Positions 1 to 20,153 of a stretch of DNA of 20,153 nt are shown here, in pieces; the stretch's first letter is position 1, and each line of letters starts with the position of its first letter. A program made the translations under genes and the position numbers. The stretch is from a virus, in IMG/VR virus record IMGVR_UViG_3300044302_002875, positions 1-20,153 of that record; one strand, given 5' to 3'. The notes under the pieces were generated by a model. That model did not search any database. It worked only from the letters and a program-made list of their open reading frames with translations, and was not told where the DNA came from.

Positions 1-1428
1 GAGTACGAAGACGCCAGAGGTCTCCCGGTCATAACAAAAGACGGAGTAACGGTCGCAGAATCAGTAGTCTTATTTGACCCGGTTGAAAATATGGGAGCGA
101 CTTTAATTAAAGAAGCTGCTAAAAATACAGTGAGAGAAGCGGGTGACGGTACTACTACGGCTACTGTTCTCGCTGAATCTCTTTTAAAAGAAGTAAATAG
201 TAGCGATGCTACTACAAGAGAAATTAAAGACGGGATAAAAACCGGTCTTAAAAAGGTAAATGATTACCTAGATAAGATTTCTGTCAAGATCGAGGGCGAT
301 ATGCTGGAATCTGTTAGCTCAATAAGTTGCAACAATGATGCAGAGCTAGGAAAGATTATAGCAGAAGCTTATACTAAAGTAGGTAAAGATGGTGTGGTGC
401 TCATGGAAGAGTCTCCAACTGAAGAGACATACGTCGAAGTAGTTGACGGCGTGCAGATCGACTCAGGACTCACATCTCCACATTTTGTTACTGATAAGGA
501 CAAGCAAATATGTGAGCTTGATAACCCGTTAGTATTAATAGTATCTTCAGAAATACCTAACATAAGAAGAATACAAACTGTATTAGAGCATGTTATAAAA
601 ACTAAACGATCACTTTTAATCGTTGCTCCAGTAGAACAGCAAGTTAAAGCTGCTCTTCTTATGAATAAGGTGAAAGGTAATATAAAAGTTAATATAGTTG
701 ACTTACCAGGTTTTGGACCAACAAAGGAAGATACTGTGGCTGACCTAGCGTTCCTTGTTGGTGCTAAAGTAATTAATGAGCAGTTAGGTGATGATCTTGA
801 TTTGATAGATATAGATTGTTTAGGTGAAGCTCATACAGCAATAACTGATGATAAAAATACCGTGTTAACTATAGATACTCCAGAAAACGAAATGGAGGAG
901 AGAATTGAGAATATTAAGAAAACTATAGATAAGTGGGAGAAAAACCCGTTTATACAGAAAAAACATAGAGAAAGATTGGCTATGCTATCAGGAAGTGTTG
1001 GAATGGTAAAAGTAGGTGCTGATTCCAAAGTTGAAATGAAAGAGAAAAAAGATAGGGTAGAAGACGCGATATATGCGACAAAAGCAGCCTTAAAAGAAGG
1101 TATTGTTCCAGGCGGTGGAATAGCGCTATTAAACGCTTCACAAAAAATCACCGCTAAAGCGGTAGGTGAAGAGATACTTCTTAAAGCTATCCAAGCTCCT
1201 TGTAAGACTATACTTGAAAACGCTGGGCTAAAACAAGATATCGATTTTAATGAAGGTACTGGTATTAATGTAATAACTGGTAAACCTGTTAATATGATAG
1301 CCAGCGGAATTATAGATCCTGTACTTGTAACTAAGTCAGCACTTAAAAACGCAGTAAGTGTAGTATCAACGATTATATCTGCAGATTGTGTAATTTCAAA
1401 TATGAGAATGAATGAGAAAAATATATAG
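1..1428 (+). CDS. groEL: GroEL-type chaperonin (60 kDa family), 5' partial
   Basis: Phage-encoded group I chaperonin subunit, expected to form an ATP-driven folding cage in the host cytoplasm. The reading frame is open from base 1, so the gene starts upstream; alignment by eye to E. coli GroEL puts the first visible residue near position 39. Visible signatures are ITKDGV, ENMGA, the ATPase motif GDGTTTATVLA, the apical PGFG, VEMKEKKDRVEDA (carrying the hydrolysis aspartate equivalent to Asp398) and PGGGIALL. All three domains are therefore present and apparently intact over 475 codons. Oddities: the protein ends soon after the equatorial strand, without a GGM-repeat tail, and the apical GYLSPYF of E. 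coli reads GLTSPHF here. The first ~60 bases are about 53% GC, richer than the rest. The end overlaps the next gene by 17 bases. The family call is very secure; phage rather than bacterial origin is inferred from the downstream virion genes. Confidence 0.96.
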   Translation, partial: EYEDARGLPVITKDGVTVAESVVLFDPVENMGATLIKEAAKNTVREAGDGTTTATVLAESLLKEVNSSDATTREIKDGIKTGLKKVNDYLDKISVKIEGDMLESVSSISCNNDAELGKIIAEAYTKVGKDGVVLMEESPTEETYVEVVDGVQIDSGLTSPHFVTDKDKQICELDNPLVLIVSSEIPNIRRIQTVLEHVIKTKRSLLIVAPVEQQVKAALLMNKVKGNIKVNIVDLPGFGPTKEDTVADLAFLVGAKVINEQLGDDLDLIDIDCLGEAHTAITDDKNTVLTIDTPENEMEERIENIKKTIDKWEKNPFIQKKHRERLAMLSGSVGMVKVGADSKVEMKEKKDRVEDAIYATKAALKEGIVPGGGIALLNASQKITAKAVGEEILLKAIQAPCKTILENAGLKQDIDFNEGTGINVITGKPVNMIASGIIDPVLVTKSALKNAVSVVSTIISADCVISNMRMNEKNI

Positions 1429-5397: not shown

Positions 5398-5784
5398 ATG
5401 TTAGGAAACTTATTATCAGGTGGTGCTGCAGATCTTGTGAAAGGCGTAGGTGGAGTTATAGACGACTTGCATACCTCTGAAGAAGAGAAGTTAGCAGCCG
5501 AACAAAAAATAAAAGAAATTATTGCCAACTATGAAGTTGAGATGGAGAAAAACATCACAAGCAGATGGGAGGCAGACTTAAAATCAGACTCTTGGTTAAG
5601 TAAAAACGTTAGACCAATGGTTTTAATATTTTTAATAGTATGCACCATGCTATTAATATTTATAGATGCTGGTGCACTAAAATTTAACGTAAAAGATTCT
5701 TATATAGATCTTTTACAAATGGTATTAATAACTGTGATCGGCGCTTATTTTGGTGGTCGATCATTTGAAAAAGTAAAAAAATAA
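5398..5784 (+). CDS. 3TM-type holin-like protein (GTA holin family-like)
   Basis: A 128-aa membrane protein resembling the 'holin of 3 TM segments' family associated with phages and gene-transfer agents. Residues 1-24 are a weakly hydrophobic Gly-rich helix (LLSGGAADLVKGVGGVIDDL), 27-60 a charged helix, then the family-typical SWLSKNVRPMVL (65-76) entering a strong membrane segment (72-92), a short loop, and a second strong segment (104-120) ending in a basic tail (RSFEKVKK). It would accumulate in the inner membrane and permeabilise it at lysis. No endolysin is recognisable next to it. The family call rests on the W-L-x-x-N-x-R-P junction and topology. Confidence 0.72.
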   Translation: MLGNLLSGGAADLVKGVGGVIDDLHTSEEEKLAAEQKIKEIIANYEVEMEKNITSRWEADLKSDSWLSKNVRPMVLIFLIVCTMLLIFIDAGALKFNVKDSYIDLLQMVLITVIGAYFGGRSFEKVKK

Positions 5785-5788
5785 AATT

Positions 5789-6160
5789 ATGGCAATATCA
5801 CAAGATACAGCTTATGGCTTTGGTCAATTAGGATCAATGTACACTACTAATGGGCAAGCAGCGATTAGCCCACCAACAGGTAAGGTTTTTGTTGCTATCA
5901 CGATGCTAGCAGACACAGTGTTTGATTCTAGTGGAGGCTTAGTCGCTGACACCACAAATACAGCAATTGCGGGTTTAGAGTACGTGGGTACTGAAGTAGC
6001 TGCCCACAATCTTGCTGACGGTAGTGAAACTTCAATATCTGGTTCAGAAGGTTTAGTAGTAGATTCAGTTACGTTTCCAAAAGGAGTAACTATTTATGGT
6101 CGTTGGACTGAAATAGACATTTCTTCTGGAGGTGGGGTTATAGCTTATATAGGAGACTAA
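5789..6160 (+). CDS. Probable virion structural protein
   Basis: A 123-aa Gly/Thr/Val/Ser-rich protein predicted to be mostly beta strands. The pattern AYGFGQLGS near the start, PTGKVFVAITMLADTVF (30-46) and FPKGVTIYGRWTEIDISSGG (96-115) looks like the small structural proteins common in marine phage genomes, but I cannot name a family. No enzyme or membrane motifs are present. The start follows aaaatt, and the stop overlaps the next start as TAATG, so it is translationally coupled to the LamG-like gene. A surface or fibre-associated role is plausible. Confidence 0.65.
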   Translation: MAISQDTAYGFGQLGSMYTTNGQAAISPPTGKVFVAITMLADTVFDSSGGLVADTTNTAIAGLEYVGTEVAAHNLADGSETSISGSEGLVVDSVTFPKGVTIYGRWTEIDISSGGGVIAYIGD

Positions 6161-6873
6161 TGTTAGGAATAGGAAATGGTTTAGTTTATGGCGGACATAT
6201 AGGTTTCGAACCTACAGAGATAGCTGATATATCATTTTGGTTTGACGCAACTCATGGCACGACTTTAGATACGGATCTTGTTGATAGTTGGGCAGCTAAA
6301 TTTGGTCCTTGGTGCGCTAAAAGTCCTAGTGGTGGTGCTACTAGACCAACTCATAATGATACTTATATAACTTTTGACGGGGGTGATGATCTAGATATTT
6401 ATAGATCTGATTGTAGTACAGCTCTTGATATTACACTCGACAGTGGTAGTGGTGGCTGGACACTACTAGCTATATATACAGACGCTGATTGGAATGGGGC
6501 TCAACAAGCTATATTTGGGCATAAAAGTGCTAATACTGATTTTGTAAGGCATGACTTAACTAATGATAGGTTTGAAATAAAAATAAATAATAATCTTAGA
6601 ACTATAGATTTAGATTCCGCGTTAACAGATAGTCAATATTATGCTATAATGTTAACATTTGATGGAACATTAACTTTATATATAGATAATGTTGCTCAAG
6701 CTGACACAGAAACTCTATCTGATAGTAATGACATAACGATTAATGCTTTCGCACAAAGAAACAATGTGGATAAATTAACTGGAGATGTAAAACATCTAAT
6801 AGGTTACGATAGAATATTAACAAGTGGCGAGCGTGCACAAATACAAAGTTGGGCTAACCAATTTATAGGATAA
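6160..6873 (+). CDS. LamG/concanavalin-like jelly-roll protein
   Basis: A 237-aa protein whose residues ~20-235 fit the LamG/ConA-like beta-sandwich seen in phage surface proteins: SFWFDATHGTTLDTDLVDSW near the start (the 'artificial substrate' opening of many bacterial LamG domains), WTLLAIYTDADWNG, FEIKINNN, YYAIMLTFDGTLTLYIDNV and GDVKHLIGYDRILTSGE. These folds usually bind glycans. In a phage the likely places are a capsid decoration or a tail-associated receptor-binding or adhesion protein. It is coupled to the upstream gene by TAATG. The family call is by pattern; the location on the virion is unknown. Confidence 0.75.
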   Translation: MLGIGNGLVYGGHIGFEPTEIADISFWFDATHGTTLDTDLVDSWAAKFGPWCAKSPSGGATRPTHNDTYITFDGGDDLDIYRSDCSTALDITLDSGSGGWTLLAIYTDADWNGAQQAIFGHKSANTDFVRHDLTNDRFEIKINNNLRTIDLDSALTDSQYYAIMLTFDGTLTLYIDNVAQADTETLSDSNDITINAFAQRNNVDKLTGDVKHLIGYDRILTSGERAQIQSWANQFIG

Positions 6874-7978: not shown

Positions 7979-8198
7979 TGAACTGATTAAAGTCGCTAAG
8001 GAACCAATTGTAGATTCAGACGATGATATATCAGCAGATAGATTGAAAAATGCCGCGGCTACTAAAAAACTAGCTATATTTGACGCATTTGAAATACTTA
8101 ACAGAATCCAAGAAGAAGAAAACTTGCTTGAGGGAAAAGCACCTGAAGAGACAAAGAAAAAAACTTTTAAAGGATTCGCAGAAGGTAGATCTAAGTAA
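7923..8198 (+). CDS. terS: Terminase small subunit candidate
   Basis: I place the start at ATG 7923 (MNIKETKKNIIQAGQKAVDE) rather than 7878: the N-terminal 15 residues of the longer form look like out-of-frame readings of the upstream gene. The 91-aa product is almost all helical, with VDELIKVAKEPI, ISADRLKNAAATKKLAIFDAF and a charged helix LNRIQEEENLLE, and a basic Gly-rich tail GFAEGRSK. Small helical proteins immediately upstream of the large terminase, here coupled by TAATG, are usually the DNA-recognition subunit that marks the packaging site. There is no sequence motif that proves it; the call rests on position, size and composition. Confidence 0.6.
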   Translation: MNIKETKKNIIQAGQKAVDELIKVAKEPIVDSDDDISADRLKNAAATKKLAIFDAFEILNRIQEEENLLEGKAPEETKKKTFKGFAEGRSK

Positions 8199-10411
8199 TG
8201 TACGAGCAAGATTTAGTTAAAATTATAGAGCCTATAAAAAAGACAACTATAAGTCGTCTTAATAAAGGTAAGAAGTGGAAATATGGTTACGACAAAGAGC
8301 ACGATATAATTGTATTATCTCGTAATGGTCAAATAGGTGAAATTATAGAAATACAAAATTTAGTTATAGCGCTACCAAAGGCTCCAAAAGAAATATACAA
8401 ACACGCCAAAAATAAATGGGTAAGATTCGAGCAACCTAAAGAACTCTCTCGTTTAAAAAATATATTTGATTGGAGAGGTTATCCGGAAGATGAAAAAGAA
8501 AAATGGTACGATTATATAGATCAAGAGTTCAAGCGACGAGAGGAAGGTTTTTGGTTTATGAACAATGGTAATCCAACCTGGATAACTGGTACGCACTATA
8601 TGTATTTACAATGGAGTAAAATAGACGTAGGCGCTCCAGATTTTAGAGAGGCAAATAGATTATTCTTTATATTCTGGGAGGCTTGCAAAGCAGATAAAAG
8701 ATGCTATGGTATGTGCTACCTAAAGAATAGAAGATCAGGGTTTTCGTTCATGTCATCTGCAGAAACAGTTAATTTAGCCACTATATCGAGTGATAGTAGA
8801 TATGGTATATTATCTAAAACAGGTGCTGATGCTAAAAAAATGTTCACAGACAAAGTGGTACCTATTAGTATTAATTACCCTTTTTTCTTTAAACCTATTC
8901 AAGATGGTATGGATCGTCCTAAGTCTGAGTTAGCATATAGAGTACCGGCTAGTAAGTTTACAAGAAAAAAAATAACAGCTAACGAACAGTTAGAAGATAT
9001 ACAAGGATTAGATACTACTATTGACTGGAAAAATACTGGAGATAACAGTTATGACGGTGAAAAATTAAATCTATTAGTACATGATGAAAGTGGTAAATGG
9101 GAAAGACCAGACAATATATTAAATAACTGGAGAGTTACAAAAACTTGTTTAAGATTAGGTAGTAGAATTGTGGGTAAATGTATGATGGGGTCAACTTCCA
9201 ACGCCCTAGATAAAGGTGGAGATAATTTTAAAAAATTATATAATGCATCAGATGTCACTAAGCGAAATAGAAATGGTCAAACAAAATCTGGTTTATACTC
9301 TTTGTTTATCCCAATGGAGTGGAACTACGAAGGATTTATTGATGAGCACGGAATTCCAGTATTCACTACTCCTGACACAGATGTGTTTGCCCCAGACGGT
9401 GAATTAATAGATGTAGGTGTAATAGATAATTGGCAGAACGAAGTAGATGGTTTAAAAGATGATCAAGATGCTTTAAACGAATTTTATCGACAATTCCCAA
9501 GAACTACAGAACATGCTTTTCGTGATGAAACGAAAAATAGTATATTTAACTTAGTTAAAATATATGAGCAAATAGATTACAACGAGGAAATGTCTAGAAC
9601 CTTAGGAATTACAACTGGTAATTTTCAATGGGTGAATGGAATTAAGGATTCACAAGTAATATTCTATCCAGATCCAAAGGGTAGATTTAAAGTTAGCTGG
9701 GTTCCACCTCAACAATTACAAAATAGAGTGGTACTTAAAAATGGTATTAAATATCCTGGTAATGAACACATGGGAGCATTTGGTTGTGACTCTTATGATA
9801 TATCAGGGACCGTAGATGGAGAAGGTTCTAAAGGAGCATTACACGGCTTAACCAGGTTTAGTATGGAGGACGCTCCTGCGAATAGTTTCTTTTTAGAATA
9901 CTTATCAAGACCACCTACGGCTGAGATATTCTTTGAAGATGTATTAATGGCATTAGTATTTTATGGAATGCCAATACTTGCAGAGAATAACAAACCTAGA
10001 TTATTATATTATTTAAGAAGAAGAGGATATAGAGGTTTTAGCATGAATAGACCAGATAAAGTTTGGAACAAATTATCTGTAGCAGAAAAAGAAGTAGGTG
10101 GTATACCTAACTCCTCAGAAGATATAAAACAAGCTCATGCAGCCGCAATTGAAATGTATATTCAAGATCACGTTGGTATGAGACAAGATGGAACATTTGG
10201 TGATTTATACTTTAATGATTTATTAAATGATTGGAGTAGATTTGATATCACAAAAAGAACAAAGTATGATGCGACAATAAGTAGCGGTTTAGCTATAATG
10301 GCTAACAATAGACATTTATATGCGCCTAATGCTAAGGTTGAAAAACCTAAATTAAACATAAACATCTCTAAGTATAATAATACTGGAGTTAATTCACAAA
10401 TAATCAAATAA
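8198..10411 (+). CDS. terL: Terminase large subunit
   Basis: A 737-aa packaging motor: an N-terminal ATPase drives DNA into the prohead through the portal and a C-terminal RNase H-like nuclease cuts it. Visible ATPase motifs are a deviant Walker A K176-N-R-R-S-G-F-S183 (pattern as in lambda gpA KSARVGYS, without the usual GKS/T), Walker B LLVHDE (292-297) with catalytic E297, and coupling motif GSTS (331-334). Nuclease acidic residues are likely D531 and D534 in GAFGCDSYD, followed by the conserved-looking FFEDVLMALVFYG (578-590) and AEN (595-597). Length is typical of large podovirus terminases. It is coupled to the upstream gene by TAATG and followed by the portal gene 5 bases after its stop. 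High confidence. Confidence 0.93.
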   Translation: MYEQDLVKIIEPIKKTTISRLNKGKKWKYGYDKEHDIIVLSRNGQIGEIIEIQNLVIALPKAPKEIYKHAKNKWVRFEQPKELSRLKNIFDWRGYPEDEKEKWYDYIDQEFKRREEGFWFMNNGNPTWITGTHYMYLQWSKIDVGAPDFREANRLFFIFWEACKADKRCYGMCYLKNRRSGFSFMSSAETVNLATISSDSRYGILSKTGADAKKMFTDKVVPISINYPFFFKPIQDGMDRPKSELAYRVPASKFTRKKITANEQLEDIQGLDTTIDWKNTGDNSYDGEKLNLLVHDESGKWERPDNILNNWRVTKTCLRLGSRIVGKCMMGSTSNALDKGGDNFKKLYNASDVTKRNRNGQTKSGLYSLFIPMEWNYEGFIDEHGIPVFTTPDTDVFAPDGELIDVGVIDNWQNEVDGLKDDQDALNEFYRQFPRTTEHAFRDETKNSIFNLVKIYEQIDYNEEMSRTLGITTGNFQWVNGIKDSQVIFYPDPKGRFKVSWVPPQQLQNRVVLKNGIKYPGNEHMGAFGCDSYDISGTVDGEGSKGALHGLTRFSMEDAPANSFFLEYLSRPPTAEIFFEDVLMALVFYGMPILAENNKPRLLYYLRRRGYRGFSMNRPDKVWNKLSVAEKEVGGIPNSSEDIKQAHAAAIEMYIQDHVGMRQDGTFGDLYFNDLLNDWSRFDITKRTKYDATISSGLAIMANNRHLYAPNAKVEKPKLNINISKYNNTGVNSQIIK

Positions 10412-10416
10412 TAAAT

Positions 10417-12837
10417 ATGGCAGAGTCTGGCATTAAAAGTTATTTCCCGAGTCAAACTGTAAGTGATGCTGAAAAGTTAAGTTACGATTATGGGTTGAAG
10501 GTAGGTAAGGCAATAGAGCAAGAGTGGTTTAATAATGATAGAAATCTTAATAGATTTAGATCTAATCAAAACAACTTTCATAGTTTGAGATTGTATGCTA
10601 GAGGCGAACAGTCGATACAAAAATATAAGGATGAGTTATCTATAAACGGTGATTTGTCCTATTTAAATTTAGATTGGAAGCCTGTTCCAATTATTTCAAA
10701 ATTTGTAGATATAGTAGTTAACGGTATAGCTGAAAGAACTTATGACATTAAAGCTTTTTCTCAAGATGTTTTTGGAATAGAAAAGAGAACACAATACATG
10801 GAGTCTATTGTAAGAGATATGCAAAGTAAAGAGTTTAATGATGCTGCAATGGAAAACTTCAATATCAATCTTTATGAAAATAAAAAAGAAGACCTACCAG
10901 AATCAGAAGAAGAATTAGCTCTTCATATGCAATTAAGTTATAAACAGGCTGTAGAATTAGCAGAAGAACAAGCTTTAAATGTTTTGTTTGAAGGTAATAA
11001 TTATGAGTTAATAAAGAAAAGATTTTATTATGATTTAACGGTTCTTGGTATAGGTGCTGTTAAAACTTCTTTTAACACCTCTGAGGGTGTTGTTATAGAT
11101 TATGTTGACCCAGCTAATTTGGTATATTCCCATACAGATTCTCCAAATTTTGACGATATATATTATGTTGGAGAAGTAAAAACTATACCTGTAAATGAAT
11201 TAGCAAAACAATTTCCTCATTTAACAGAGAGTGATCTTGAGGATATAATGAAAAATAAATCTAGTAATAGATCTAATTATAATTCAATACATAGTTATGA
11301 CAAAGAGGATAATAATACTATTCAAGTTTTGTATTTTAACTATAAAACCTATATGAATGAGGTGTATAAAATAAAAGAAACAGCTACTGGTGCAAATAAA
11401 ATTATACCTAAAGATGATACCTTTAACCCACCAAAAGATAAAGAAGGTGGTTATACAAGAATGTTAAGATCTATAGAGTGTTTATATGATGGCGCTATGA
11501 TTCTTGGTACAAATAAATTACTTAAATGGGAGATGGCATCAAATATGATGCGGCCAAAAAGTGATTTTACGAAAGTAAAAATGAATTATGCTATCGTTGC
11601 TCCTAGAATGTATAATGGTAAAATAGATTCATTAGTAAAAAGAATTACTGGTTTTGCAGATATGATTCAACTTACGCATCTTAAGTTGCAACAAGTAATG
11701 TCACGTATGGTACCAGATGGAGTTTATCTTGATGCTGATGGTTTAGCTGAGGTTGATTTAGGTAACGGAACAAATTACAATCCACAAGAGGCTTTAAACA
11801 TGTTCTTCCAAACTGGTTCGGTAATTGGTAGATCATTTACTCAAGATGGAGATATGAATCCAGGCAAAGTGCCTATTCAAGAGATTACATCGGGATCTGG
11901 TGGAAACAAAATTCAAGCTCTTATAGGTAATTATAATTATTACTTACAAATGATAAGAGATGTAACCGGTCTTAATGAAGCTAGAGATGGTAGTATGCCA
12001 GATAAAAACGCTTTAGTTGGTGTACAAAAATTAGCAGCGGCAAATTCAAATACTGCTACTAGACATATATTACAAGCTGGATTATATTTAACTGCTGAAA
12101 CAGCGGAGTGTCTATCTCTTAGAATATCTGATATCATAGAATACTCCCCAACTAGAGACGCTTTTATACAAGCTATAGGCGTACATAATGTAGCTACACT
12201 AGAAGAAATGAAAAATCTTCATTTATATGATTTTGGTATATTTTTAGAATTATCTCCAGATGAAGAAGAAAAAGCTATTTTAGAAAACAATATTCAAATG
12301 GCAATTCAACAGCAAAATATAGAGCTAGAAGATGCTATAGATCTTAGGGAAATACGTAATATAAAGTTAGCTAATCAACTTCTTAAAATACGTAGAAAGA
12401 AAAAACAAGAAAGAGATAGACAACTACAATTAGAAAATATACAAGCTCAAACTCAATCAAATGCGCAGGCTGCCCAGGCTGCTGCACAAGCAGATGTTCA
12501 AAAAAACCAAGCATTAAACGCTGGTAAAGCAGAGTTAATGCAAATGGAGGCGGAAATTGATGCTCAAAAAATGTTGCAAGAAGTTCAAATGAAAAAAGAG
12601 TTAATGGCATTAGAATTCCAATATAACATGCAATTAAAAGGTATTGAGGTTGATGGCATGAAAGAAAGGGAAAAACAAAAAGAAGATCGTAAAGACGAGA
12701 GAACAAAAATTCAAGCAACACAACAGTCAGAAATGATTGAACAAAGAAATAGTGGAAAACCACCTAAAAACTTTGAATCCGCGGGTAATGATATACTAGG
12801 TGGAGGATTTGATTTAGGGGCGTTTGAACCTAGATAA
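10417..12837 (+). CDS. Portal protein
   Basis: An 806-aa protein directly after the terminase and before the scaffold and capsid genes, the canonical portal position. The core (about 1-600) has mixed alpha/beta composition with portal-like features: an N-terminal helical wing, DPANLVYSHTDSPNFDDIYY, and a long-helix stem/crown region (GLNEARDGSMPDKNALVGVQ, KLAAANSNTATRHILQAGLY). Residues ~610-775 are an uninterrupted Gln/Glu/Lys-rich coiled coil, as in the long C-terminal barrel helices of P22-type portals. The protein ends NFESAGND...GAFEPR; NFESAGND recurs in the next gene. Twelve copies would form the DNA channel and dock terminase and neck proteins. No enzyme motifs. Confidence 0.88.
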   Translation: MAESGIKSYFPSQTVSDAEKLSYDYGLKVGKAIEQEWFNNDRNLNRFRSNQNNFHSLRLYARGEQSIQKYKDELSINGDLSYLNLDWKPVPIISKFVDIVVNGIAERTYDIKAFSQDVFGIEKRTQYMESIVRDMQSKEFNDAAMENFNINLYENKKEDLPESEEELALHMQLSYKQAVELAEEQALNVLFEGNNYELIKKRFYYDLTVLGIGAVKTSFNTSEGVVIDYVDPANLVYSHTDSPNFDDIYYVGEVKTIPVNELAKQFPHLTESDLEDIMKNKSSNRSNYNSIHSYDKEDNNTIQVLYFNYKTYMNEVYKIKETATGANKIIPKDDTFNPPKDKEGGYTRMLRSIECLYDGAMILGTNKLLKWEMASNMMRPKSDFTKVKMNYAIVAPRMYNGKIDSLVKRITGFADMIQLTHLKLQQVMSRMVPDGVYLDADGLAEVDLGNGTNYNPQEALNMFFQTGSVIGRSFTQDGDMNPGKVPIQEITSGSGGNKIQALIGNYNYYLQMIRDVTGLNEARDGSMPDKNALVGVQKLAAANSNTATRHILQAGLYLTAETAECLSLRISDIIEYSPTRDAFIQAIGVHNVATLEEMKNLHLYDFGIFLELSPDEEEKAILENNIQMAIQQQNIELEDAIDLREIRNIKLANQLLKIRRKKKQERDRQLQLENIQAQTQSNAQAAQAAAQADVQKNQALNAGKAELMQMEAEIDAQKMLQEVQMKKELMALEFQYNMQLKGIEVDGMKEREKQKEDRKDERTKIQATQQSEMIEQRNSGKPPKNFESAGNDILGGGFDLGAFEPR

Positions 12838-12865: not shown

Positions 12866-14071
12866 ATGGAAGAAAAACTAGAAGAAGTAGTTGAAGAAAC
12901 TACACAAGAAACAACTGAACAAACTGAGGAAACTCCTCAAGTAAATGAATCTAATTTTGAAAGCGCTGGTGATGATAGCGTTATTAAAGTAGATTTAAGT
13001 AAACCACCAAAACCAGTAGAAGAAGAAAATGAAACTAAAGAAGATAACGCTGACGACAGCGGAGTGGTTGCAGAGTCTGAAAGTGCCGAGCCCACACAAG
13101 AACAAAAAGAAGTACAACCGGAAGCAGAAGCACAAGAAACTTCAGTATTAGAAGAGATAACAGAAGATTCTACCGAAGAAGAAGTTGCTGAAGTTGAAGA
13201 GCAAGTTGAAGAGGCTATTGCTGAGGCTCAGGCTACTGGAAAACCAATACCAGAAAATATCCAAAAACTAATAGATTTTATGGAAGATACTGGTGGAGAT
13301 TTAAATGATTACGTTAAACTTAATCAAGATTATTCAAAATTAGATGATAAAAATCTACTATATGAATACTACAAGCAAACAAAACCTCATTTAAATAATG
13401 AAGAAATTAACTTCCTTATGGAAGATTCGTTCTCTTATGATGAAGAAATTGATGAAGAAAGAGATATACGAAGAAAAAAATTAGCGCTAAAAGAGCAAGT
13501 TGCCAGCGCTAGAGCCCATCTGGACGGGCAAAAGTCCAAATACTATGAAGATATCAAAGCTGGAAGTAAATTAACTCCAGAACAGCAAAAAGCTGTAGAT
13601 TTCTTTAATAGATATAACAAAGAGTCAGAAGCAACTCAAAAAACAGTTAAAAAGAATACTGATATTTTTACACAAAAAACAAATAATGTTTTTAACGATA
13701 AGTTCAAAGGTTTTGAATACAATGTCGGTGATAAAAAGTACAGGTTTAATGTAAACAATGCTGAAGAAGTTAAAAATACTCAGAGCGATATAAATAATTT
13801 TACCAAAAAGTTTTTGGACAAAAATTCTACATTATCAGATGCTAAGGGTTATCACAAATCTCTATTTACAGCAATGAATGCAGACGCTGTTGCAAAACAC
13901 TTTTACGAACAAGGAAAAGCTGATGCTATGAAAGATAGTGTCGCTAAAGCCAAAAACGTGAATATGGATCCAAGACAAAGTCATGGGAAAATTGAAGCAG
14001 GTGGTTTAAAATTCAAAGTGTTAGGTGATAATGCTGCTGATTTTAAGTTTAAAAATAAAAATCAAAAATAA
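12866..14071 (+). CDS. Scaffold-like acidic head protein
   Basis: A 401-aa protein between portal and major capsid genes, where a scaffolding protein is expected. Residues 1-~125 are extremely rich in Glu/Thr/Gln and probably disordered; 125-350 is charged helix (with SSARAHLDGQK-like and NTQSDINNFTKKF stretches); the last ~40 residues are basic (GGLKFKVLGDN, FKFKNKNQK), like the coat-binding tail of P22-type scaffolds. N30-D37 reads NFESAGDD, almost identical to the portal's end. It would template capsid shell assembly and exit or be cleaved before packaging. No protease triad is visible. The assignment rests on position, acidity and helical layout. Confidence 0.72.
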   Translation: MEEKLEEVVEETTQETTEQTEETPQVNESNFESAGDDSVIKVDLSKPPKPVEEENETKEDNADDSGVVAESESAEPTQEQKEVQPEAEAQETSVLEEITEDSTEEEVAEVEEQVEEAIAEAQATGKPIPENIQKLIDFMEDTGGDLNDYVKLNQDYSKLDDKNLLYEYYKQTKPHLNNEEINFLMEDSFSYDEEIDEERDIRRKKLALKEQVASARAHLDGQKSKYYEDIKAGSKLTPEQQKAVDFFNRYNKESEATQKTVKKNTDIFTQKTNNVFNDKFKGFEYNVGDKKYRFNVNNAEEVKNTQSDINNFTKKFLDKNSTLSDAKGYHKSLFTAMNADAVAKHFYEQGKADAMKDSVAKAKNVNMDPRQSHGKIEAGGLKFKVLGDNAADFKFKNKNQK

Positions 14072-14093: not shown

Positions 14094-15548
14094 ATGGCAA
14101 TTTCAAGTGCAACGCCGATTGATGCGGCGCCAAGAAAACAAACGTTGTCGTCTAATTATGTAGACTTTACATCAAGTGATACTGAAGGATGGGCGCAACA
14201 ATACTTACCAGATCTTATGGAAAAAGAAGCTGAGATCTATGGTAAAAGAACAATCGCAGGATTTTTAGCTCAAGTAGGAGCTGAAGAAGCTTCTGCAGCT
14301 GACCGAGTTGTTTGGTCTGAACAAGGTAGATTACATTTAGCGTATAAAGGAACAATTGCTGGTTCTCCAGCTGGTGATGCTAGTGATAATATCATTACTA
14401 TTACTAAAGATATTGATGGTAATACAATTGCTTCAGGTGAGCATGGTATTAGAAAAGGTGATATCGTTATTGTTTCTCAAGCAACTGCAACTGTTAGAGG
14501 TTATGTAGACGATACTAGTGCAACTACTATCACTGTACATCCTTACAACGAAGCTGATTTAGATGCCGCTGGTTTATCAGATGATTCTACTGCTGACGCT
14601 GTAAGAATACTAGTTGTTGGTTCTGAGTTCGCTAAAGGAACAGCTGCTAGAGACTCTGCTAACTCTCCAAAGTTCAAATCTCATATGAACAAACATATTA
14701 TCTTAAAAGATTTCTACGAAGTATCAGGTTCTGATGCATCTGCAATCGGTTGGGTAGAAGTTTCCGGTGAGGAAGGACAAAATGGTTACTTATGGTATCT
14801 AAAAGCTGAAGGAGACACTAGAGCTCGTTTCGCTGATTATTTAGAAATGTCTATGTTAGAAGGTGAATTAACAGTTGCAAACTCTGTTATTGATCTTCAA
14901 ACTGGTACTGATACTGGTGCTGATGGTTCTGGTACTGAAGGTTTATTTAAAGCTATTACTGCTAGAGGTCACCAAACTACAGGTGTTACTGGTGTTAACG
15001 CTGCGACTGATTTAGCTGAGTTTGACGCTATTTTAGCTGTATTTGACCAAAATGGTGCTATTGAAGAAAACATGATGTTTGTAGATCGTTCTACTAGCTT
15101 AGCAATGGATGACATGTTAGCTTCTATGAATTCTTATGGAGCTGGTGGTACTTCTTACGGAGTATTTGATAACTCTGAAGACATGGCACTTAACTTAGGA
15201 TTCTCTGGATTCCGAAGAGGTTCATATGACTTCTACAAGTCTGACTTTAAATACTTAAACGATAAAGGTACAAGAGGTGCTTTAAATGACACTGTAAATG
15301 CAATTAGAGGTGTTGTTATACCAGCTGGTGTATCTTCAGTTTATGATGAGATGTTGGGTAAGAATATGAAGAGACCATTCTTACACGTACGTTATAGAGC
15401 TTCTGAAACTGAGTCTAGAAAAATGAAGACTTGGGTTACAGGTTCTGTTGGTGCAATGACTTCTGGGAAAGACGTTATGGAAGTACATTACTTATCTGAA
15501 AGATGTTTAATTACTCAAGGTGCTAATAACTTCATGTTAATGAACTAA
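14094..15548 (+). CDS. Major capsid protein
   Basis: A 484-aa protein after the scaffold gene, with codons biased toward GCT, GGT, TCT and AAC, as for an abundant protein. The N-arm (1-60), E-loop-like SEQGRLHLAYKG (75-86) and long P-domain helices fit an HK97-type fold. Residues ~84-182 look like an inserted beta domain (ITITKDIDGNT, KGDIVIVSQATATVRGYVDD, TTITVHPYNEADL). The C-terminus ends HYLSERCLITQGANNFMLMN, which closes the A-domain strand in many marine capsid proteins. No prohead-protease cleavage site is evident. A strong terminator follows 14 bases after its stop. HK97 fold is inferred from pattern and position. Confidence 0.88.
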   Translation: MAISSATPIDAAPRKQTLSSNYVDFTSSDTEGWAQQYLPDLMEKEAEIYGKRTIAGFLAQVGAEEASAADRVVWSEQGRLHLAYKGTIAGSPAGDASDNIITITKDIDGNTIASGEHGIRKGDIVIVSQATATVRGYVDDTSATTITVHPYNEADLDAAGLSDDSTADAVRILVVGSEFAKGTAARDSANSPKFKSHMNKHIILKDFYEVSGSDASAIGWVEVSGEEGQNGYLWYLKAEGDTRARFADYLEMSMLEGELTVANSVIDLQTGTDTGADGSGTEGLFKAITARGHQTTGVTGVNAATDLAEFDAILAVFDQNGAIEENMMFVDRSTSLAMDDMLASMNSYGAGGTSYGVFDNSEDMALNLGFSGFRRGSYDFYKSDFKYLNDKGTRGALNDTVNAIRGVVIPAGVSSVYDEMLGKNMKRPFLHVRYRASETESRKMKTWVTGSVGAMTSGKDVMEVHYLSERCLITQGANNFMLMN

Positions 15549-17373: not shown

Positions 17374-18711
17374 ATGGGATTAATAACACAAACACCTCAA
17401 CAATATTATTCTGGGAATGTATTTGGTGATTATCAATTTACATCTTTAGATAATATAATAAATCATTTTATGATAGCTTATGTTGGTGAAGATAAAATTA
17501 TTCCTAAAACAAAAAGATTAGATGTGGCATATCATGCTCAAAGAGCTGTGCAAGAATTATCATTTGATACTTTTAAATCTTGCAAGGCACAAGAAATTAC
17601 AGTTCCTGCCACTCTGCAAATGACATTACCACCAGATTATGTTAACTACACTAAAATTAGTTGGGTAGATTCTGCTGGTATAAAACATCCATTATATCCC
17701 ACTAATAGAACTTCAAATCCATCATCAAACCCTCTTCAAGATGATGATGGTGATTTTATATTACAAGCTGTTGGGACTTTAGATTCTGCACTTAGCACTA
17801 TAGATTTAGACGCGGAATATAAAGATATTTTAGTTGGCATGAAAGTAATAGGGCCTTATATACCAGCTGGGACTATTGTAAAAAGCACTTCAAATTTAAA
17901 TAGTATTACAACAATAACAATAAGTAATGGCGCGGGTACTCCGGTTACACCAACAGAAAGTAATACTGGTACAACTTTAACTTTTGAAAATACAGATGGA
18001 TCATTAATTTTACCACAAAAAGAATCACATATAGTTGAAAATTTATCTTGGGACTTTACTTTAGCTGACTATAAAATAACAGGTACTGCTTCTGAATTAA
18101 CAGATTTAGAAATAGGTATGAAAGTATCTCATGATGATTTTCCATTAAATACAATAATTACAAATGTCTACGATACTACTATAGTAGTAAGTCACAATCC
18201 AACTACTACAGTTTCATCTGGTGGCGAAATAACTTTTGTTTCTCCAGACATATCAGATACAGACACTTGGGCTAATTACAAATCAACTACACCATCAGAA
18301 AATAATAACGACGATTATGAAGATGATACTTATTGGCCACATCATGGGCAGAGGTACGGCTTAGATCCTCAGCATGCACAGGTAAATGGTTCGTTTTACA
18401 TAGACTGTGCTTCTGGTAAAATACATTTTAGTTCTAATATTTCAGGAAAAACTGTGATCTTAGATTATATAAGTGACACTCTTGGATATGATAACGAAAT
18501 GCAGGTTCATAAGTTTGCTGAAGAAGCTATGTACAAATGGATTGCTTATGGTATATTATCAACAAGAGCTAACGTGCCAGAATATATAGTTCGACGTTAT
18601 AAAAAAGAAAAATTTGCTGAAACTAGAAAGGCAAAGTTAAGACTATCTAATATTAAATTAGAAGAAATCACTCAAATTTTAAGAGGTAAATCAAAACAAA
18701 TAAAACACTAA
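17374..18711 (+). CDS. Neck/connector protein with two inserted beta repeats
   Basis: A 445-aa protein. The N-terminal ~125 residues (LDVAYHAQRAVQELSFDTFK, VPATLQMTLPPDYVNYTKIS) and the C-terminal ~80 (HKFAEEAMYKWIAYGILSTR, FAETRKAKLRLSNIKLEEIT, RGKSKQIKH) look like a head-tail connector/tail-tubular protein. Between them lie two similar domains: 133-204 (LVGMKVIGPYIPAGTIVKST, ITTITISN, TGTTLTF) and 222-289 (LEIGMKVSHDDFPLNTIITN, TTIVVSHNPTTT, GGEITFVSP). Both follow a G-M-x-V, x-P-x-x-T-I-(V/I), T-x-I-x-(I/V)-S, L/I-T-F pattern common in adhesin-like phage domains. It abuts the stabilisation gene (3 bases). Probably a ring protein of the neck carrying surface decorations. Confidence 0.7.
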   Translation: MGLITQTPQQYYSGNVFGDYQFTSLDNIINHFMIAYVGEDKIIPKTKRLDVAYHAQRAVQELSFDTFKSCKAQEITVPATLQMTLPPDYVNYTKISWVDSAGIKHPLYPTNRTSNPSSNPLQDDDGDFILQAVGTLDSALSTIDLDAEYKDILVGMKVIGPYIPAGTIVKSTSNLNSITTITISNGAGTPVTPTESNTGTTLTFENTDGSLILPQKESHIVENLSWDFTLADYKITGTASELTDLEIGMKVSHDDFPLNTIITNVYDTTIVVSHNPTTTVSSGGEITFVSPDISDTDTWANYKSTTPSENNNDDYEDDTYWPHHGQRYGLDPQHAQVNGSFYIDCASGKIHFSSNISGKTVILDYISDTLGYDNEMQVHKFAEEAMYKWIAYGILSTRANVPEYIVRRYKKEKFAETRKAKLRLSNIKLEEITQILRGKSKQIKH

Positions 18712-18714
18712 TAT

Positions 18715-20153
18715 ATGCCGGAGATAAAGCGTAGTTTTACCAGTGGTAAAATGAATAAAGATCTTGACGAGAGACTTATTCCACCAGGCGAATATAGAGA
18801 TGCTCAAAATATACAAGTAGCAACGTCAGAAGGATCTGATGTTGGTACTGTTCAAAATATATTGGGTAATACTCCTGGTTGTAGTTATGCGTATCCTGGA
18901 GACAATCCGGTTCCAGAAGGATCAACAACAGTTGGATCTATTTCAGATGAAAAAAATGATACTTTGTATTGGCTTGTTGCCGGAACAAATTTTGAAGATG
19001 TGGTAGCGAATAACTTTCCATTAGCACCAGCAAGTGTTATGTCGTTTAAAGATCTCATAATGCGTTTAAATGCGGGGAGTGTTGGGTGTGAACCGGTATT
19101 TGTTGATAAATATAAATTCTGCACTGGTATACAACCTTCTTTAGCTGGAATACAAAATAGTATTTCATTAGACGATCCATCTTTATATGACCATATATTT
19201 GTTGGAATGACCGCCACTGGATTTATTGGTACAAGTCTTACTTGGCAAGCTAATGTAATTGATGTAGGTGAGATCAATATGCTGCCAGTTACATACACAT
19301 CTCATTTCAATCAAGTATCTGTATTACCACCTCCTATTAACACAGAAAATTTAAGAGTTAGAGGTCTTATAAATACTGGTTGTTTTGGTGGTCCGACACA
19401 ATTTGCTTTTAACGAAACTAGAGCTGGATATGCCTATGGATCAAATAATCCATCAGCAGGTTGCTGTCCTAATTATGGGGAGACAACCGGGGTTTTATCT
19501 AATCTTCCAGATTGTGATGCTTCTTCCAACCCTCCTTTTGGTGATTCACAATTTTGGATGCTACCTGCTGATTATGACCAAAGTATAGTTGTTGGTAGTA
19601 TAATATCAGACGTTATAGATATTAATACTCAATCATGTCCTATGAATGCTATGTGCGGGGTGCAGGCAGAAATTTTAGATATTCAATATCAACAAATCTG
19701 TGCGGATAGTGAAAATATAACTTCACCAGGTTTTAATACGATGCCTTCTCCATTTTTTCAAATGCACACATGTTTTATGGCCTATGTATTTACAATTGGT
19801 TATAATGGACAAAGTCGATGGCTTGAACGTAGTCTCTTGTCATATACAATTGGAAATCCTTATAATTGTACTGGAACAACAGCGCAAGCTGGTGGTGGAT
19901 GTAATGGTGAGGCTTATACATGGGCACCTCTTGAGGCTACTATAAGTCCACCGTCTTATTTGCAAAATGTTCCTAATAATACTATTTCAATATATTCTTC
20001 ACAGTGGTTAGATGAAATTTACAACACGCTTTACGATGCAAATGGCGCTCTAACAGGTGCTCAATTAATGATAGATAACAATCTTGGCGCTGGAATTTAT
20101 TGGCCTCCAAATTCATGTATTGATCCAGCTACTATTTCAGGTCCTTTGGATCT
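18715..20153 (+). CDS. Tail stabilisation protein, 3' partial
   Basis: Open for 479 codons from ATG 18715 to the window end. The start SFTSGKMNKDLDERLIPPGE then YRDAQNIQVATSEGSDVGTV, QNILGNTPG is the N-terminal signature of tail-stabilisation/tail-tubular B-type proteins (P22 gp10/T7 gp12-like, also named 'stabilization protein' in crAss-like phages), which form the tail hub after DNA packaging. The body is strand-rich (STTVGSISDEKNDTLYWLVA). Oddly for a phage tail protein, the visible part has about 14 cysteines, including a C-C pair and several before Pro or Asp. No stop is reached, so length and C-terminal domains are unknown. Start context is A/T only; it follows the preceding stop by 3 bases. 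Confidence 0.8.
   Translation, partial: MPEIKRSFTSGKMNKDLDERLIPPGEYRDAQNIQVATSEGSDVGTVQNILGNTPGCSYAYPGDNPVPEGSTTVGSISDEKNDTLYWLVAGTNFEDVVANNFPLAPASVMSFKDLIMRLNAGSVGCEPVFVDKYKFCTGIQPSLAGIQNSISLDDPSLYDHIFVGMTATGFIGTSLTWQANVIDVGEINMLPVTYTSHFNQVSVLPPPINTENLRVRGLINTGCFGGPTQFAFNETRAGYAYGSNNPSAGCCPNYGETTGVLSNLPDCDASSNPPFGDSQFWMLPADYDQSIVVGSIISDVIDINTQSCPMNAMCGVQAEILDIQYQQICADSENITSPGFNTMPSPFFQMHTCFMAYVFTIGYNGQSRWLERSLLSYTIGNPYNCTGTTAQAGGGCNGEAYTWAPLEATISPPSYLQNVPNNTISIYSSQWLDEIYNTLYDANGALTGAQLMIDNNLGAGIYWPPNSCIDPATISGPLD

Follow-up and report, generated by a model that had tools for sequence, protein, structure and literature searches.

A predicted head-to-tail adaptor with exchangeable domain cassettes in short-tailed relatives of Cellulophaga phage phi38:1

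Domains inserted in, or borne by, virion proteins have been described in several phage systems. The evolved Dit (evoDit) of lactococcal skunaviruses is reported to fall into 16 groups of insert types, with the inserts linked to host exopolysaccharide, and CBM insertions are reported to let the phages adsorb to hosts that bear exopolysaccharide (PMC10688798). For T5 and RcGTA, host adhesion is attributed to an OB-like insertion domain of the Dit (PMC10276861). The same paper judges the beta domain of the roseophage R4C adaptor to be structural and too near the head for adsorption (PMC10276861). Host binding has been proposed for tail-associated BACON repeats (PMC6949934), and the podoviral proteins TTPA and TTPB of Vibrio phage OWB are described as binding the host receptor (PMC7241545). 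In phicrAss001, the ring at the portal end is given as R1, gp43 (PMC10172136). Among the titles and abstract openings listed by our open-access full-text searches, none described exchangeable cassettes in a podoviral adaptor.

Here we analysed a 20,153-nt stretch of viral DNA (positions 1 to 20,153 of IMG/VR record IMGVR_UViG_3300044302_002875, hereafter the window), in which a gene for a putative adaptor bears a cassette of two beta domains (Table 1). The gene order of the window is also found in Cellulophaga phage phi38:1, Flavobacterium elemo phage and ctfjg026, and in Maribacter phage Panino with a few small added genes. The comparison with Pervagoviridae consists of a gene order as in phi38:1 and the presence of Cpn10; the core list reported for Pervagoviridae includes the portal, chaperonin cpn10 and common structural proteins (PMC8776804). 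With regard to Crassvirales, the window has a crassvirus-family muzzle protein, whose match to Pfam crAss_MUZ (PF25731) is confined to the N-terminal part and just passes the cut-off (27.7 bits, cut-off 27). A muzzle N-terminus of the window type was found in 301 of 302 downstream ORFs. The host is likely in Bacteroidota, because the cultured relatives infect Flavobacterium, Cellulophaga and Maribacter and the single match in the genome collection is on a 63-kb contig from a bin assigned to Sphingobacteriales.

Several other ORFs of the window can be described. Positions 91-1428 encode Cpn60 (PF00118, 142 bits, N-terminus not covered) and positions 1844-2101 the Cpn10 chaperonin (PF00166, 32 bits). 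A small membrane protein (5398-5784) comes near Pfam GTA_holin_3TM, at 22.8 bits and thus just below the cut-off of 24.8. A 237-aa protein (6160-6873) looks by eye like a LamG/concanavalin-type lectin, for which Pfam gives no supporting match. The capsid-type protein has a weak SU10_MCP match below the cut-off.

Table 1. Features of the window that bear on the predicted adaptor and its cassette
Feature	Position (nt)	Residues	Strand	Basis or remark
Terminase	8198-10411			
Portal protein	10417..12837		+	phrog_6547
Putative scaffold	12866-14071			by position only
Capsid-type protein	14094-15548			
Neck protein, 221 aa	16702..17367		+	phrog_14543
Predicted head-to-tail adaptor (ring) gene, 445 aa, bears the cassette	17374..18711		+	phrog_13977; AlphaFold2; adaptor/neck chains in 8/9 best rows
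Conserved N-terminal core half	17374..17727	1-118	+	alignments
Site 1, empty in the window	17410..17427	13-18	+	filled in 21/340 homologs
Site 2, linkers and cassette	17728..18336	119-321	+	relatives without cassette have linker only
Repeat R1	17764-17997	131-208	+	profile match to R2; pLDDT about 90-96
Repeat R2	18028-18246	219-291	+	profile match to R1; pLDDT about 87-93
Conserved C-terminal core half	18337..18708	322-445	+	alignments
Muzzle (tail nozzle) gene, continues past the window end	18715..20151		+	Pfam crAss_MUZ; phrog_14478

An earlier note, made from the letters alone, had read the span 17770-18240 as two adhesin-like beta repeats inserted in a head-tail connector. This span corresponds to residues 133-289 of the 445-aa ORF at 17374..18711. 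Two distinct stretches of the protein match phrog_13977 ('head and packaging, virion structural protein'), as expected given an insert, and this bears out the connector-like ends described in the note. The AlphaFold2 model was compared with other structures by VIA-align and Foldseek. Phage portal or tail assembly chains make up eight of the nine best VIA-align rows and are aligned over both core halves. The Z scores are 10.2 and 10.0 for phicrAss001 (7qog_B, which we take to be ring protein R1, and 7qoi_FS), 9.6 for KHP30, 9.4 for VP1, 9.3 for GP4, 8.4 for B2, 8.3 for Pa223 and 8.1 for N4, with T7 (7.9) and SU10 (7.6) in lower rows; these core matches are loose (rmsd 5.7-9.5). Foldseek found nothing in the PDB at E <= 0.001. 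Among viral models the best match is a 455-aa protein with 40% identity, and one weaker match is labelled head to tail adaptor.

The core fold of helices and a beta domain is as in known adaptors (Z 10.2-8.1 at rmsd 5.7-9.5), and the gene lies between the portal/capsid genes and the muzzle (nozzle) gene. The phage adaptor matches and this gene position agree with the earlier placement of the insert in a head-tail connector. From the sequence and the model, we interpret the window protein as forming the adaptor ring between head and tail in a short-tailed relative of Cellulophaga phage phi38:1. A kinship between the adaptor core and the neighbouring 221-aa neck protein was also considered, and no profile kinship was detected.

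As judged by their sequences, R1 and R2 are divergent versions of a single beta domain. Within the window protein alone, the two align with a Smith-Waterman score of 57, compared with 29.3 +- 5.5 for shuffled sequences; none of 2000 shuffles scored as high, ruling out a chance likeness. Profiles of R1 and R2, built from 72 cassettes of the class that includes the window (class A, see below), match each other with an hhalign probability of 96.8% (E 3e-10, 51 columns). The repeat pair proposed in the note thus holds, with the best limits being those in Table 1, and its shared landmarks are found in both copies (GMKV/GMKV, PAGTI/PLNTI, TITIS/TIVVS and LTF/ITF). In the AlphaFold2 model, residues 130-290 are all beta with block means of 87-96 pLDDT, while the mean for the whole protein is 75.3 and some core stretches fall below 50. 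In VIA, R2 resembles chain 8eci_1 of Arthrobacter phage Bridgette, presumably a decoration protein (Z 9.4, 24% identity over 75 residues). The window repeats also match the lambda tail tip 8k35_A (Z 6.6) and T5 pb9 (Z 5.8), in a range (Z 5-7) where many unrelated, non-binding proteins have the same fold. No match to any named family was found for the repeats in Pfam, PHROGs or PDB sequences. The predicted model is nearer to small barrels of the OB/EF-Tu-domain-2 type, as in decoration and tail-tip proteins of phages, than to the adhesins with which the note had compared the repeats. As a separate observation, residues about 85-180 of the capsid-type protein resemble, by eye, a similar small beta domain.

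To place the insert among relatives, we used a homolog sample from eight viral-contig scans and one genome-contig scan (best 80 each) together with four named phages. The resulting 537 loci contain 526 complete homologs, of which 340 are unique; seven truncated ORFs, ORFs with one core half, exact duplicates, the window's own copy (L319) and a second phi38:1 stretch (L390) were excluded. A cassette is present at site 2 in 193 of the 340 unique homologs and absent in 147, in a sample of chosen queries and best 80 per scan whose class frequencies are not the frequencies in nature. The relatives without a cassette have only a linker of 39-61 aa at site 2, and the adaptors of phi38:1, Panino, elemo phage and ctfjg026 (283-307 aa) are without insert. 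The repeats are an optional cassette between two conserved core halves. Missing from 147 of the 340 homologs, the insert is ruled out as a part of the core fold, and an arrangement in which both segments keep a constant length within that fold was not seen among the 340. The variable region expected in the note, and the alignment of homologs by which it was to be checked, are borne out by this absence, by the 103 of 193 cassettes that lie outside class A, and by the number of repeat copies in class A, which is two in 82 of 90 cassettes and one in the other 8.

A second site is used in some relatives. In 21 of the 147 homologs without a site-2 cassette, a different beta domain of 75-120 aa follows about residue 13 (site 1), and it is often recognisable by a pattern like SFTGDGTTTxFT; L141 5269-6426 is an example. 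Neither site is filled in 126 of the 340 homologs, whose C-core identity to the window is at least 55% in 50 cases and less in 76. Both sites are filled in none of the 340. Explaining the site-1 state on the tree takes 8 changes, yet only 1 is forced by strong branches, and an independent-pairs test of the exclusion has 1 usable pair (p 1). The overlap of 0/21 is therefore no more than suggestive of a mutual exclusion beyond ancestry.

Blast clustering at 1e-5 sorted the 193 cassettes into 16 clusters, namely A with 90 members (including the window), B with 58, C with 29, E with 3, one cluster of 2 and 11 singletons; class D is counted within class C in these later tallies. Class A shows no profile kinship with B, C, D or E, and class B none with C, D or E. 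Profile matches connect C with D (98.5%), C with E (80.7%) and D with E (46.9%). The class B model, obtained via L171 (mean pLDDT 68.8), matches CBM16 2zex_A with Z 13.5 and rmsd 2.3 over 129/147 residues (VIA), followed by CBM61, CBM4 and others, and Foldseek matches it to CBMs with E down to 4.8e-6. Among the matches listed, the fold also occurs in insecticidal-crystal-protein, ephrin-receptor and meprin MAM domains. In this model, class B cassettes have a CBM-type jelly-roll fold, for which glycan binding is predicted only. Class E is weakly CBM4/9-like; its scores against CBM_4_9 (PF02018) of 19.1 and 15 bits (E 0.0018 and 0.034) fall below the Pfam cut-off of 25.9, by which it is not a member. 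The singleton cassette of L380 matches Laminin_G_3 (PF13385) with 74.2 bits (cut-off 27.6, E 1.6e-20). A motif search found a common Cys-rich pattern like D-x-Y/F-C-x-C...CG in the cassettes of L451, L405, L433, L434 and L454, which are otherwise too unlike each other to cluster.

Closely related cores bear different cassettes. Among 400 sampled class-A pairs, the mean pairwise identity is 65.5% for the N core, 34.7% for the cassette and 71.3% for the C core, and the cassette has the lowest identity in 399 of them. On an IQ-TREE phylogeny of 117 core sequences, a partly hand-picked and partly random subset of 263 rows, explaining the cassette states takes 46 changes (minimum 11), and the strongly supported branches alone force at least 4-6 changes each for none, A, B and C. 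The corresponding figure is 65 (minimum 17) on a FastTree phylogeny of 263 near relatives. Such counts could be inflated by recombination within the core.

The exchange can also be followed in DNA. Different classes sit on core pairs that are up to 94% identical in protein (L145 with class B and L153 with class C). The L145 and L153 contigs share 96.2% DNA identity over 5356 bp, a stretch that reaches 14 bp into the insert region; they are unalignable across the insert and 80.9% identical beyond it, the junction being sharp on the 5' side only. Even within class B, the cassettes of L117 and L119 are 41.6% identical in amino acids between flanks of 95% (539 bp aligned) and 94% (1000 bp) DNA identity. 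The class differs in 10 of 39 pairs at 85% flank DNA identity and in 448 of 745 at 80%, counts that exclude pairs with no cassette on either side and for which the flank matches often span just part of the 1000-1500 bp given. Where both flanks reach 90% or more, none of the nine pairs has two different classes, so the class swaps seen in these sequences are not very recent. Cassettes have been replaced by unrelated folds and exchanged repeatedly, with flank and cassette discordant in DNA.

Inserts are also found in the muzzle gene. At least one of the cassette profiles R1, R2, C and E matches inside the first 450 residues in 27 of the 301 muzzle N-termini, and no class-B match was found in the 301. 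Class-C domains are located at about residues 85-250 of the muzzle in L023, L172 and L176. These profile matches indicate that the same domain pool extends to the muzzle gene. An insert is also present in the downstream ORF (muzzle) of L224, and by eye the muzzle of the window has its own insert at about residues 90-300 and a GM-type repeat near residue 165.

We consider it reasonably probable that the adaptor forms a ring with recombination-swapped, outward-facing cassettes that are predicted to bind, in many copies, the glycans of host capsules or particles. The two sequence-separated halves of the conserved core would build a ring between portal and muzzle and keep the DNA channel, probably in 12 copies by analogy with the phicrAss001 rings (PMC10172136). 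A loop between two core beta strands would take a foreign domain and leave the core undisturbed. In the window this domain is a predicted tandem pair of small beta barrels; in relatives it is a CBM-type jelly roll, a CBM4/9-like domain, a Laminin_G_3 lectin, a Cys-rich or other domain, or nothing, and some relatives instead fill a second loop close to the N-terminus. The exchange of cassettes between phages would proceed by recombination in the conserved flanks, and the cassettes diverge much faster than the core. The cassettes may project outward in many copies, bind host-capsule or particle glycans and hold the phage before irreversible binding, and their exchange could retune glycan binding like the CBM insertions in lactococcal evolved Dit.

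Binding-type folds swapped at a fixed, dispensable site, together with fast divergence, argue for a variable external partner. Most simply, this partner outside the phage would be the glycans of host capsules or particles, and the neck probably also serves as a sticky collar that can be changed. The suggestion of sugar binding comes mainly from the sequences and models of the domains found in place of the repeats in relatives; it is put forward most weakly, by position only, for the barrels of the window itself. The receptor binding of TTPA and TTPB in phage OWB supports the ability of adaptor-type proteins to touch the host. On the other hand, the structural reading of the R4C domain counts against a binding role of adaptor cassettes, and 126 of the 340 homologs do without any cassette.

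Alternatively, the cassette might be a structural brace, stabilising the neck through contact with the capsid or portal vertex and playing no part in host binding. The likeness of R2 to Bridgette 8eci_1 (Z 9.4), presumably a decoration protein, would suit a brace. So would the R4C adaptor, whose Ig-like attachment domain was read as structural (PMC10276861). However, a brace would be expected to co-vary with its partner and to keep one fold, whereas here unrelated folds swap on closely related cores and both sites are empty in 50 near relatives, and we regard this explanation as unlikely. We give even less credence to the idea that the cassette docks tail fibres or hubs of different kinds, with its class tracking the fibre type. 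The phicrAss001 proteins R1 and R2 are reported to form an interface with fibre docking hubs (PMC10172136), but a docking part would be missing from the 126 of 340 homologs without cassette, and jelly rolls and lectin folds are ligand-binding folds. A glycan-acting enzyme instead of a binder is very improbable, since no hydrolase family was found in any cassette scanned and the cassette folds are those of binding modules, although podoviral tail tubular protein A has been reported to hydrolyse polysaccharide or saccharide (PMC5440376, PMC5741709).

The preferred reading, a ring of swapped glycan-binding cassettes, can be widened tentatively. The adaptor might be a general display platform in which two mutually exclusive loops and a muzzle loop draw on one pool of lectins, CBMs and barrels for a predicted glycan-binding collar, many-copied and quick to be exchanged; we hold this wider version to be possible, with less than even confidence. 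If true, the collar would contribute, apart from the tail fibres, to the choice of the capsule or particle to which the phage adheres, and the pool of lectins, CBMs and barrels would circulate between phages of a large marine group. Studies of host range in short-tailed phages usually look to fibres and spikes and treat the adaptor as a plain scaffold, but here the adaptor is itself a part that varies, with lectin and CBM folds. The adaptor site would provide a concrete, countable locus for studying how marine phages follow capsule diversity or keep hold of particles.

Among known systems, the core fold is like that of the adaptors of phicrAss001 (R1, gp43), KHP30, GP4, N4, T7 and SU10 (Z 10.2 to 7.6), and the adaptor gene stands just before the muzzle gene, as gp43 is described before gp44 in phicrAss001 (PMC10172136). 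Unlike the window protein, the matched podoviral adaptor chains (190-243 aa, rmsd 5.7-9.5) are without the 160-aa cassette. A predicted small OB-like barrel inserted in a ring protein is reminiscent of the Dit of T5 and RcGTA (T5 pb9, Z 5.8), but Dit is another ring protein and the window match is weak and common to many unrelated barrels. BACON repeats of crAss-like phages are likewise tail-region beta domains of Bacteroidota phages, reportedly gained by transfer and duplication; they differ in being another domain, located in ORFs of their own and not inserted in an adaptor (PMC6949934). The roseophage R4C adaptor also bears a beta domain at its periphery, but this is an N-terminal Ig-like domain of one fold in a siphophage, read as structural by its authors (PMC10276861). 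The likeness to evoDit lies in CBM-type domains placed within a conserved ring protein of the virion, where the N- and C-terminal parts on either side can be aligned with the form that has no insert (PMC10688798). Whereas evoDit is a distal tail protein of siphophages, the carrier here, found in short-tailed phages, is by fold and position not a Dit but a head-to-tail adaptor, and its inserts cover a wider range of folds. Our best reading, by analogy, is that the cassette system is an adaptor analogue of 'evolved Dit' with predicted glycan-binding domains round the neck.
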